Both the position numbers and the translations under genes were made by a program. 25,297 nt of DNA, taken from positions 1 through 25,297 of IMG/VR virus record IMGVR_UViG_3300042868_007578; one strand, 5' to 3'. Position 1 is the stretch's first letter, and every line of letters starts with the position of its first letter. The notes beneath the pieces are model-generated. The model searched no databases and was not told where the DNA came from. It saw only the letters and a program-made list of their open reading frames with translations. This DNA is from a virus. Positions 9,982-25,169 of this stretch are shown piece by piece.

Positions 9982-11004
9982 TTATTTTGCGTATTTTAAA
10001 TATTCTGGTTTTACTTGTACTTTAAATACATATAACTCTCTGTTACTAATATGAATTTCTCTTCTAACAATTGGTTCTAAATATTTAAAACTTATTGAGT
10101 CAAGTTTTTCATTACTTTCTAACCAAAGAATCATATCATGTGCATTTTTTCTACAGAATTTATTGAAGTTAGATTGTTCTAGCCAATACTGGACATCTTT
10201 GTCTCTATTATAATGATACATATAACGTTCTGCTTTATGCGCAAACTCCCATAGTAAATGATAGTTTTGTAAGTAATCAATTGTTGGGATAACTTTTGCA
10301 GCCATAGCTCTATCTTCATCACTATAGGATTGTAGATATTTTTGTATATCTTCCAATAGTGTTTCATTTAAAACCTGTTTGTTAGCTGATTCATAAATTA
10401 CTGTATTTACATCAATTGTTGCTATTAAACCTAATTCAATTCTGTGAGCAAGATTTATGGCCATACCGGTAATCATCCATTCATCATATAATGAATCTCC
10501 TGTAATACAATGATGATATTTTACTTTGCTAGCTAAATTACCATCAAAAATTACATCTCTGGGATAATCATCTACGATTGAGACTGAACCGTTTGTTTCT
10601 TGAAGTGTTTGATAGTTCCATAACTTGGCCATTAATACAGTTGACTTAATAATATTTCCACTGTCAAATCTTTCATAGACATCTTCATGGGTAATAATTA
10701 TATCAGCTAATTCATAATCATTTATTACAGTTATACCATGTTCTTTTAGAGCAGATTTAATTCTATCTAATGAAACATTACACTTAGGTAATACAAAAGC
10801 TTTCTTTTTGGTTTTAAAAGTTGTACTATTTTCAGTACTGGTTGTTAATATATTTTGTATTTTTTTGAATGTTGTTTCATCTTGTGTAACTAATACTTCT
10901 TCAATCACATTGGATGATAGAACCCCATAATATGGGGCACTATCTAATCCAAAGTAATTTAAAGCACCAGCACCATATGATTGATAAACTGATTTATTTG
11001 CCAT
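9982..11004 (-). CDS. Unknown protein, 340 aa; paralogue of the downstream gene
   Basis: The product starts MANKSVYQSYGAGALNYFGL; residues about 65-115 contain KAFVLPKCNVSLDRIKS then ITVINDYELADIIITHEDVY, the part shared with the 381-aa neighbour. The middle is helical with Asp/Glu-rich linkers, and the C-terminus is basic with beta character (REIHISNRELYVFKVQVK). Its ATG lies one base after TAA at 11006-11008, the end of a leftover MoxR C-terminus, which shows that before the HNH insertion it followed the MoxR gene directly. No domain is recognised. Confidence 0.75.
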   Translation of the reverse strand: MANKSVYQSYGAGALNYFGLDSAPYYGVLSSNVIEEVLVTQDETTFKKIQNILTTSTENSTTFKTKKKAFVLPKCNVSLDRIKSALKEHGITVINDYELADIIITHEDVYERFDSGNIIKSTVLMAKLWNYQTLQETNGSVSIVDDYPRDVIFDGNLASKVKYHHCITGDSLYDEWMITGMAINLAHRIELGLIATIDVNTVIYESANKQVLNETLLEDIQKYLQSYSDEDRAMAAKVIPTIDYLQNYHLLWEFAHKAERYMYHYNRDKDVQYWLEQSNFNKFCRKNAHDMILWLESNEKLDSISFKYLEPIVRREIHISNRELYVFKVQVKPEYLKYAK

Positions 11005-11005
11005 C

Positions 11006-11053
11006 TTATTTCATTGTCATTCTGATGATATTAGGATCCATCATCATTTTGTT
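11006..11053 (-). pseudogene. Remnant of the MoxR gene 3' end (displaced by the HNH element)
   Basis: After the HNH stop, 15 codons and a stop read NKMMMDPNIIRMTMK. The intact MoxR-like gene (11667-12938) ends NRIMLNPDIVKMTMK. By eye 8 of 15 residues are identical and the others are conservative changes; about 33 of 48 bases match. The remnant ends TAAG directly before the ATG of the next gene, a tight operon join that must be the original order. It is therefore the native C-terminus, left without its gene when the HNH segment entered and brought a new one. Confidence 0.8.
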
Positions 11054-11597
11054 AATTAATTTCATTTTTTAAATATTTTATTGCTTGGTTTAATTTAATT
11101 ATATCATCTTTAAACATACCTATAGCCACATTACAGTGACCACAAAGTATACCTCTAACAATACCTGTGTTATGGTCATGATCAACACACAATCCTTTTT
11201 TGTGCTCATTGCCATCATTATGACATATTTCACATTCTTGATTTGCTCTTGTTAATTCATAATAAAAATCTTCTTTTGTAAAGATTTTACCTTGTCTGTT
11301 AAATATACCTTTAGCTTTCCAGCCAGCTTCTAACCATTTTTGTTTATTTTTTTTATAATATGCTTTAGAAGTTTTTTTAATTACTTCTTTATTTTCTGCA
11401 TAATAAACTTTTTGTCTGGCTAAATATTTGACTTTTCCTTTTTCATACGTTTCATTATGTTTAATTGGATCATATAAATCTTGTTTTCTTTTGCTTTCAC
11501 AAACTTTACAAGCAGATACATGTCCATCTTTACTTATTTTTGACTTATGATAATCAGTTAAAGATTTATTTACTTTACATTTAGTACATTTTTTCAT
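11052..11597 (-). CDS. HNH endonuclease (endonuclease VII type), probable homing enzyme
   Basis: I start at ATG 11597 (MKKCTKCKVN), not at 11654, because the zinc-finger N-terminus begins there and the extra 19 residues overlap a hairpin. Residues 4-33 carry C-x2-C ... C-x2-C (C4, C7, C30, C33), a zinc finger. Residues 45-100 are basic and helical. Residues 122-155 form the His-Me nuclease: C122-x2-C125, then VDHDHNTG (D139, H140, D141, H142, N143), then C152-x2-C155, as in recombination endonuclease VII. The enzyme should cut double-stranded DNA with one metal ion. Its insertion at the end of the MoxR gene, with that end duplicated (11006-11053), indicates a free-standing homing endonuclease. 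A T4 gp49-like resolvase role is a weaker option. Confidence 0.85.
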   Translation of the reverse strand: MKKCTKCKVNKSLTDYHKSKISKDGHVSACKVCESKRKQDLYDPIKHNETYEKGKVKYLARQKVYYAENKEVIKKTSKAYYKKNKQKWLEAGWKAKGIFNRQGKIFTKEDFYYELTRANQECEICHNDGNEHKKGLCVDHDHNTGIVRGILCGHCNVAIGMFKDDIIKLNQAIKYLKNEIN

Positions 11598-11611
11598 AAT
11601 ATAATTGTTTA

Positions 11612-11650
11612 ATGGTAACAAGAATAATATACAATTAAACTTGTTACCAT
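11612..11650. repeat. Inverted repeat between the MoxR stop and the HNH start
   Basis: Two 11-base arms, ATGGTAACAAG at 11612-11622 and its exact complement at 11640-11650, enclose 17 bases. It belongs to the inserted HNH segment (16 bases from the MoxR stop and 14 from the HNH start). There is no T run on the minus strand. It could end MoxR transcription, protect RNA, or hide the HNH start region from translation; no choice can be made from sequence. Confidence 0.6.
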
Positions 11651-11666
11651 CCAAACAATTTGACTA

Positions 11667-12938
11667 TTATTTCATAGTCATCTTAACAATATCAGGGTTT
11701 AACATTATGCGGTTAAACTTCTGTTTATTACCATTAAAGATTGTACGTACAATTAGATACTTAAGATCATTAGTAAAATAGTCTTTAGTACAAAGAGAGA
11801 TCAATCTGTCTGATATTTTTTGTCCTACAGTATTATCTTTACTGTAAACAACTGAATAGTTTGCTAATCTTGTTGCTAATGTAGCAGCAATGTCCGCACG
11901 GTATGTATCATCTTTACCAATACAACCTCTTAACTCACCTAAAATATATGATTCATTGTCATGAGTCAATAAATCTTTAGGTGTTACCAGTTTGTCCAGT
12001 TTGTTGTTAATAAATGTAGTAAACATAGAAGCAAATGTATCTCCAACAGAACCTTCACCAATCATTTGAATTAATGATAAGTTAGATTCAAAGTTATCAA
12101 AGCTAGATATAGCATTAAAGAATGTTGTAATAGATCTTGCATTTGTTTCTAGAGTAACTAATTCTGGATGTAACAATAAAAAGTTAATACATCTTGAGTC
12201 AATACCTGCTTCTTCTGCCCATTGTGCCCATACGTTTATATCAAACTTAAGGTTTGCTGTAACATATCTGGTTTTTTGTGCAGCATCTACTGAGTTTACC
12301 ATGTACTCACCGTTGTCTGGATTTGCTGTTAATATGATATGCCAATCTTTTGGTAATGTCCAAGAGATATAGGTTTGTCTATCTATTAACTCCATAACTG
12401 CTTGAATAAATCTTGTGTCAGCTCTATTCCAGTCATCTAGTAATAAAATACCACCTTCTTTTTTATCAGCAATCCACTCTGGTGGGCAATAAGACATCCT
12501 GTTCTTACCTGTCATTTTATATCCTGTTTTAAGATATTCTTGAACCGCAAGTTCATCAACCCATAATCCAACTTTTTTTGTTACTGCTGTTTGCATGTTG
12601 GCAAGGTCTGATGATGCAGCTGTTCTTTGTGCTGCAGTATAGGATAAATCATCTATTTTTGATTCTGAAACTCTTGTTTCTTTATACATTTGAAATTGAC
12701 GTACTGGGAATCCTACTAAGTCACCTAACTCTTCTATCTGTGCAAGGTTAACCTTTACAAAGTTTAAGTTGTTTTCTTTAGCTAGCTCAACAATGGTAGA
12801 TGTTTTACCAATTCCTGATTCTCCTAATACTTCTACTGATACAGATTGTTTACCCTGTGCTTGTAAAAATCTGTTGTTTGTAATAATGTGATTTACAAAT
12901 CCTTTTAATTCTGTTACGTTTAAATTTACTTGTGCCAT
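11667..12938 (-). CDS. MoxR-type AAA+ ATPase, 423 aa
   Basis: Walker A is GESGIGKT (39-46), Walker B ILLLDDWNRAD (164-174), sensor 1 about N206 in ILTANPDNGEY, and a candidate arginine finger R224 in DAAQKTRYV. The ILLLDDWNRAD and TANPDNGEY forms and the about 120-residue spacing fit the MoxR/CbbQ/NorQ branch, whose hexamers act with a VWA partner as chaperone or remodeller. That partner is the adjacent upstream gene (12948-14108, 9 bases away). The C-terminal about 170 residues are helical. The last 15 codons appear to have been resupplied by the HNH element, which may alter the tail. Its client is unknown. Confidence 0.85.
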   Translation of the reverse strand: MAQVNLNVTELKGFVNHIITNNRFLQAQGKQSVSVEVLGESGIGKTSTIVELAKENNLNFVKVNLAQIEELGDLVGFPVRQFQMYKETRVSESKIDDLSYTAAQRTAASSDLANMQTAVTKKVGLWVDELAVQEYLKTGYKMTGKNRMSYCPPEWIADKKEGGILLLDDWNRADTRFIQAVMELIDRQTYISWTLPKDWHIILTANPDNGEYMVNSVDAAQKTRYVTANLKFDINVWAQWAEEAGIDSRCINFLLLHPELVTLETNARSITTFFNAISSFDNFESNLSLIQMIGEGSVGDTFASMFTTFINNKLDKLVTPKDLLTHDNESYILGELRGCIGKDDTYRADIAATLATRLANYSVVYSKDNTVGQKISDRLISLCTKDYFTNDLKYLIVRTIFNGNKQKFNRIMLNPDIVKMTMK

Positions 12939-25084: not shown

Positions 25085-25169
25085 TAGTCAGGACAGGATT
25101 CGAACCTGTAACCTCTTTGGGCGAGCTGTTCTTGCGGGAAGCCCTCGTCTACCATTCCGCCACCTGACT
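25085..25169 (-). tRNA. Class II tRNA-like gene (leucine-like), 12-nt anticodon loop
   Basis: The acceptor stem AGTCAGG/CCTGACT is a perfect 7 bp. TGGCG...GGTAGACG matches the leucine-type D-arm. The T arm is ACAGG-TTCGAAT-CCTGT. The variable arm is 13 nt with a GCC/GGT stem, typical of class II. The discriminator is A, as leucine tRNAs need; CCA is not encoded (ACAAA follows). The anticodon stem GGGCT/AGCTC (one G-T pair) encloses TCCCGCAAGAAC, 12 bases in place of 7, so no standard anticodon with a preceding T can be read; CAA (leucine) is present in the loop. It may be a degraded tRNA, one with an internal insertion, or a special form. Confidence 0.75.

Follow-up and report, generated by a model that had tools for sequence, protein, structure and literature searches.

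A candidate phage homing element that carries a replacement end for its target gene MoxR, and related end swaps at other phage genes

Mobile ORFs that bring a foreign C-terminus to the gene they enter have been described in fungal mitochondria, for atp6 of Allomyces macrogynus and for atp6, atp9, cox2, and nad3 of Glomus sp. DAOM-229456 (PMC3630166). For these systems, that paper gives 91–98% identity to a close relative for the native part and 64–81% for the carried part. Introns with an N-terminal duplication are described from mitochondria of Tremella fuciformis (PMC7315562), and partial C-terminal duplications near homing ORFs from Endoconidiophora (PMC6279837). In phages, the free-standing seg and mob genes of T4 co-convert flanking markers (PMC2988022), and a DHHRN family has been proposed for F-CphI, a phage enzyme targeting psbA (PMC6083498). 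Neither a survey of phage nucleases (PMC10448857) nor the T4 review (PMC2988022) mentions end swapping in its accessible parts. A search of titles and abstracts, with subscription journals and preprints outside its scope, returned no end-swapping phage elements; such a search does not establish absence from print. This accords with an earlier note on the DNA analyzed here, which remarked that such elements seem rarely noted in phages, and further cases are reported below.

The locus lies in a stretch of 25,297 nt (the window, meaning the whole of the DNA analyzed) from IMG/VR virus record IMGVR_UViG_3300042868_007578. Its features are all on the minus strand and are given here in reading order. 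The target gene encodes a 423-aa MoxR-like AAA+ ATPase (11667..12938 in the ORF list; PHROG ATPase 2.8e-35, with Pfam AAA matches that are weak and below cut-off) and ends in NRIMLNPDIVKMTMK-stop (11667..11714). A 69-nt spacer with a hairpin (11598..11666; recognized by fold energy and an inverted repeat) separates it from an HNH gene of the endonuclease VII (DHHRN) type (181 aa, 11052..11597; assigned from Pfam, PHROG, and the catalytic motif). The HNH stop codon TAA (11054–11052) shares bases with a second copy of the MoxR tail, NKMMMDPNIIRMTMK-stop (11006..11053), which MoxR no longer uses. This copy ends in TAA, followed by a single G and the ATG, at 11004, of the next gene (9982..11004, 340 aa), which has neither a Pfam nor a PHROG match. 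The order of MoxR end, hairpin, HNH gene, second tail, and TAAG-ATG had been described in the earlier note, and every element proved right to the base. Elsewhere in the window, a tRNA at 25085–25169 (minus strand; 37.1 bits) is the sole Rfam match.

A recount of the two endings returned the agreement claimed for them, 33 of 48 bases (0.6875). The pair is the first direct-repeat family in a repeat search of the window (50 nt, 70%, spacing 661), and a degenerate pattern of the MoxR ending occurs twice in the window and not once in 100 shuffles. When the two HNH flanks are aligned as DNA, 7/200 shuffles score as well, a modest excess over chance that leaves the repeat undecided from the window itself. 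The relatives decide it, a 48-bp similarity no better than chance being one of the earlier note's refuting conditions. This DNA-level flank-duplication test, which covered 33 HNH loci and the window and also returned a low-complexity match common to L089 and L090, was superseded by a protein-level test (see below).

Relatives of MoxR were collected by a scan of IMG/VR, and the best 80 of 430 were analyzed. At E 1e-3, the HNH protein matches nothing in any of the 80, and no HNH relatives were found in the records of 24 of these loci (0/24). The next gene is kept after MoxR, forming the right flank of the empty site: it is visible in 78 of the 80, with a gap of −1 to +12 nt between the MoxR stop and its start in 72/78. 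For the other six (L015, L017, L055, L058, L062, and L080), the gap is 105–119 nt, and no second MoxR tail was seen in it. These gaps are filled by a small optional ORF with paired CxxC motifs. A second scan, with the next gene as query, returned 28 loci, mostly contigs already in the MoxR set; 26 are directly joined to MoxR, and the exceptions, L126 (the contig of L015) and L128, carry the small ORF. Close relatives without the element thus have a single, native-type end. The prediction that HNH-free relatives would run from MoxR through a tail like 11006–11053 into the next gene was borne out, and none of them was seen to carry both tails.

Comparison with these relatives distinguishes the two tails. 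The copy at 11006–11053 adjoins the downstream gene as in the empty site. Compared with the tails of the 16 nearest relatives that lack the HNH gene, it has 79–96% identity, against 69–83% for the tail in use by MoxR. The part of the window's MoxR that precedes GTTTAAC is ordinary for its lineage; immediately beyond that motif, the gene departs from all 16 (the departure point lies after GTTTAACCGCAT if the recipient bore the CGC allele of L007, L010, L012, and L013). When 49 distinct natural tails from 92 loci are taken as a wider reference, the best identity is 0.833 for the used tail (median 0.708) and 0.958 for the displaced tail (median 0.812); nearest-neighbor identity among the natural tails has a minimum of 0.792, a 5th percentile of 0.850, and a median of 0.958. 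The used tail is unusual in lying below the natural 5th percentile, yet it is above the natural minimum. Its codons ATA (position 3), TTA (5), and AAG (11) occur in 0/49 natural tails and its ACT at position 13 in 1/49, where position 5 is ATG in 49/49 and position 13 is ACA in 48/49. The displaced tail likewise has one codon absent from the natural tails (AGA at 11, 0/49). Judged by relatives' tails and by codons, the downstream copy is identified as the displaced native tail and the copy that MoxR uses as foreign. Both a foreign end in use and a native end displaced beyond the endonuclease gene are present at the locus; the native end of MoxR has been replaced, and the gene is open only because the imported tail is in use. 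The claim that a diverged tail had replaced the native end while leaving the host gene intact is well matched by the abrupt change at GTTTAAC and the two ranges of identity. The used tail may instead be a native allele that changed fast, and its best identity (0.833) does exceed the natural minimum. It also speaks against an imported end that only one occupied MoxR allele is known and that a donor of the tail was not found (0 matches to one near-exact pattern in viral contigs); among the compared relatives, its best match is 40/48 (L010, L012, and L013).

We regard the locus as a free-standing homing element carrying a replacement end for its target gene, at a probability of roughly 0.83. This reading, proposed in the earlier note for an element with a diverged MoxR tail, gains support from the HNH-free relatives, the foreign tail, and the open gene. 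The element would consist of the recoded last ~15 MoxR codons with their stop, the hairpin spacer, and the endonuclease VII-type HNH gene; it sits in MoxR at GTTTAAC, with the native tail displaced behind the HNH gene. In a co-infecting phage whose MoxR 3′ end is uninterrupted, the enzyme would make a cut there, and the element would be copied in during repair. One junction would form by homology inside MoxR and the other by microhomology, leaving the orphan tail; at the abrupt side, TTAAC is shared with the recipient and contains the HNH stop codon. The imported tail, with its changes at codons that hardly vary elsewhere, would escape cutting, as would the orphan tail, whose left half is lost. 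We infer cleavage, the repair route, and the immunity of the element from sequence comparison.

The HNH protein matches Pfam Endonuclease_7 (1e-19) and PHROG endonuclease VII (1.7e-27), and among proteins of solved structure it resembles Hpy99I and T4 endonuclease VII by sequence. Its CxxC-DHDH-R-CxxCN pattern starts at residue 122 of 181. The window protein and all 11 endonucleases examined have the catalytic pattern (CxxC, DHxH, R, and CxxCN), whose columns are invariant in the alignments. A motif near the C-terminus is, according to PMC6083498, the arrangement in most of the DHHRN endonuclease clade as against resolvases, and the HNH protein shares it. By motif and position, it is a predicted homing endonuclease of the DHHRN family.

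The spacer folds with −26.7 kcal/mol (z −6.45). The arms of its inverted repeat lie at 11612–11628 and 11634–11650, a longer imperfect stem surrounds them, and the pairing reaches into the HNH start codon, taking in its first two bases. For T4-type phages, start-site hairpins of homing genes have been described, and I-TevI represses itself via an operator that it binds like its homing site (PMC2988022). By analogy with the T4-type homing genes, the hairpin probably limits translation of the HNH gene. The sequence ATGGTAACAA is found in both hairpin arms and, in some relatives, in MoxR just upstream of the junction. In three of the six relatives examined (L002, L004, and L010), TTTAATGGTAACAA is the longest stretch of the spacer to recur exactly anywhere in the 9.3-kb locus, and this match ends 6 bp before GTTTAAC. 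L005 has an 11-nt spacer match there and elsewhere, and in L001 and L016 the best match is not there. The 14-nt match between spacer and site has P 0.003 (0.3% of dinucleotide shuffles have one as long), for a match noticed post hoc, and is only a hint that the spacer may serve as an operator or target mimic.

Replaced gene ends are not confined to MoxR. In one structural-protein gene, whose distant homologs are annotated as structural protein (Cellulophaga phages) or ring protein (phage csAssE-Sib) and whose phages, from these names, we take to be crAss-like, the heads rather than the tails are affected. A native head precedes the endonuclease in the occupied loci, and a second head, overlapping the endonuclease stop, opens the gene. 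Five lineages are occupied: L228 (the contig of L194 and L308) with L229; L309; L290 (the contig of L184); L299; and L301/L302, where the residual head ends after codon 12, not 18. Occupation of the same site in five lineages is suggestive of mobility and no more. The serine at position 4 is encoded by TCA or TCT in the 5/5 occupied loci counted (L309 also has TCA) and by AGT or AGC in 73 of 74 unoccupied loci; the 74th, L249, was misread one codon off and shows AGT, and L229 is outside both counts. A change from AGY to TCN takes two base changes. For L308, L309, L290, and L299, the imported heads have a mean mutual identity of 0.836, against 0.731 to their own residual heads; the residual heads among themselves reach 0.775. 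The residual head is closer than the imported one to 70 (L308), 68 (L309), 35 (L290), and 66 (L299) of the 74 unoccupied relatives. L290 is equivocal by this count; its best match to unoccupied relatives is 0.89 for the residual and 0.78 for the imported head.

To see how widespread such ends are, loci with endonuclease VII-type genes were surveyed (most sets being the best 80 matches listed for each, plus phage regions), asking whether the translated DNA before and after each endonuclease ORF has a gene end in common. The 279 loci gave 222 endonuclease places, among which 179 distinct ORFs had sufficient flanking sequence. To pass, a case had to score 45 or more, its shared end had to carry a start or stop, and the two copies had to lie close to the endonuclease. 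Among the matches listed, 11 of the 179 ORFs, the window included, have a gene end duplicated across the endonuclease (the window, L299, L290, L227, L308, L309, L352, L367, L302, L336, and L261), and 1 of 727 other ORFs from the same loci passes as a control (Fisher P 1.4e-7). Leaving out the window together with L367, a weak case, gives 9/177 (P 3.0e-6), and with one case per insertion site it is 4/172 (P 0.0055); these P values are descriptive because the criteria were set after cases had been seen. L367 was not kept as a firm case, since it passes by an out-of-frame match only and its six-codon shared ending is weak. High scores at L104, L205, L210, L211, L421, L435, and L438 come without the gene-end geometry. 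A further set of 58 loci with 59 ORFs (41 GTDB loci and 17 phage regions, of which 5 also belonged to the first set) gave, among its 15 best scores as read, a sole clear end swap, the already known L227. For GIY-YIG ORFs, the survey comprised five loci, which is too few. End swapping is a minority behavior of the endonuclease VII-type (DHHRN) family. As a separate observation, a long terminase-annotated ORF in L393 (Gordonia phage Nordenberg) and L398 (Mycobacterium phage Neos5) encloses an endonuclease VII match, possibly an intein.

The passing case L227 is from a cultured phage, Leptolyngbya phage Lbo-JY46, in which MSFKINSLYLADGYK precedes the endonuclease and MSFKINSLYWVDGYK opens PncB. 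The two PncB heads agree at 13/15 residues and 31/45 bases, and both serines differ as AGY and TCN. The PncB of Tenacibaculum phage PTm1, a 57% relative, has serine TCA, which does not decide the native copy in L227. L352 has a duplicated head of 34 residues. The tails of L261 and L336 end in LRKWNC and LRKWKC, and those of L336 are plainly different alleles. Over 57 loci, the displaced 21 nt of L261 match natural tails at up to 1.00 (median 0.95) and the used 21 nt at up to 0.95 (median 0.86). Near position 1349 of L265 and L267, an LRKWNC gene with no endonuclease after it has the CGT arginine codon of L261's imported tail, possibly an allele remaining after loss of the element. Three further tail duplications recognized on reading (L272, L315, and L328) fail the automatic criteria and are outside the 11. 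For L272, compared with 13 pattern-found tails among the 80 loci listed, the displaced tail reaches 0.93 (median 0.90) and the used tail 0.83 (median 0.80). The gene in L328, a cyanophage contig, is psbA; at 1190–1800, an F-CphI-like endonuclease ORF has as its in-frame ending an exact duplicate of the psbA (D1) C-terminus. As these two tails do not differ over at least 54 nt, recoding is not universal. An orphan psbA tail follows the endonuclease in none of five psbA-linked cases (S-PM2 with F-CphI, S-RSM88, S-B05, S-H68, and RB11-B). This absence at F-CphI and its four relatives, and the duplicate in L328 that is not recoded, weigh against an imported end.

The same cases bear on the proposal that the end of MoxR was duplicated locally within its lineage, that the HNH gene landed between the two copies, and that the upstream one then drifted, so that nothing was imported. 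The L328 copies are identical, and CGC and AACCCTGAT occur both in the imported MoxR tail and in the L010-type allele of its own lineage (the 40/48 match), so the source of this tail need not be distant. However, the used copy, which is under selection, changed while the orphan stayed like the relatives, the reverse of what drift would do, and the copies in L336 are different alleles; the imported heads of the ring gene resemble one another more than their own residuals. We consider a local duplication improbable. Still less probable is a group I intron or another spliced element, in which MoxR codons would be spliced to the tail at 11006–11053 and the upstream tail would be intronic. In L123, L124, L128, and L443–L445 (L441 and L442 being the contigs of L123 and L124), MoxR is interrupted at a Walker B-like LLLDDWNRA by ~1-kb inserts, with GIY-YIG ORFs in those of L124 and L128. 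These inserts look like introns, in the same gene and at another site, and those of L123, L124, and L128 have no Rfam match. Against splicing in the window, the spacer outside the HNH gene is 69 nt, and an intron would not need a full in-frame exon copy with a stop; no Rfam intron family was found in the window at the gathering threshold, in a search that also missed the inserts of L123, L124, and L128. Least credible is an assembly chimera of two related phages, which fits a single known occupied MoxR contig but neither the collinearity of both flanks with relatives nor the recurrence of the architecture, which is found in independent contigs as well as in a cultured phage, Lbo-JY46.

Tail swaps have their upstream junction within homologous gene sequence and an abrupt junction downstream; in head swaps, the order is reversed. 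The simplest account of the imported ends would be a cut repaired homologously on one side and illegitimately on the other, orphaning the native end, and its mirrored version would explain the head swaps in other phage genes. We lean, by a narrow measure, towards a recurrent class in phages, in which DHHRN-driven homing cassettes carry a recoded, cleavage-resistant head or tail of the target and the orphan native end marks the side joined without homology. Such cassettes would be a natural counterpart of engineered gene drives with recoded rescue copies. By means of a rewritten end, a selfish endonuclease can invade a conserved phage gene and leave it unbroken, probably removing its own target in doing so; the likely target is the recoded stretch, which can be read from the sequence. 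End swapping would also account for abrupt breakpoints of mosaic genes that lie no more than a few codons from the gene end.

Among known systems, the T4 seg and mob genes share with the HNH element their free-standing form, their place beside conserved genes, and their start-site hairpins; their insertions lie between genes or split a gene, and a carried end with an orphan native copy is not described in the available parts of PMC2988022. F-CphI of cyanophage S-PM2 is likewise a phage enzyme with an endonuclease VII motif at its C-terminus, free-standing beside its target gene. However, its self-protection comes from a psbA intron (collaborative homing; PMC6083498), and no orphan psbA tail follows it. 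The Tremella elements resemble the phage head swaps in that an N-terminal part is exchanged via a mobile element carrying a homolog, and differ in being described as introns of fungal mitochondria with larger fragments. Closest are Allomyces and Glomus, where the endonuclease ORF also sits at the 3′ end of a gene, the foreign C-terminus is used, and the native one is displaced behind it, with the same pattern of numbers. Those cases are from fungal mitochondria and involve LAGLIDADG or GIY-YIG enzymes; the fungal hybrids have been shown in mRNA, and the mobility of the earlier system biochemically (PMC3630166), whereas the MoxR case is known from sequence. The MoxR locus is a phage example of the fungal-mitochondrial kind, with another enzyme family and also a mirror-image form, and it is not unique.
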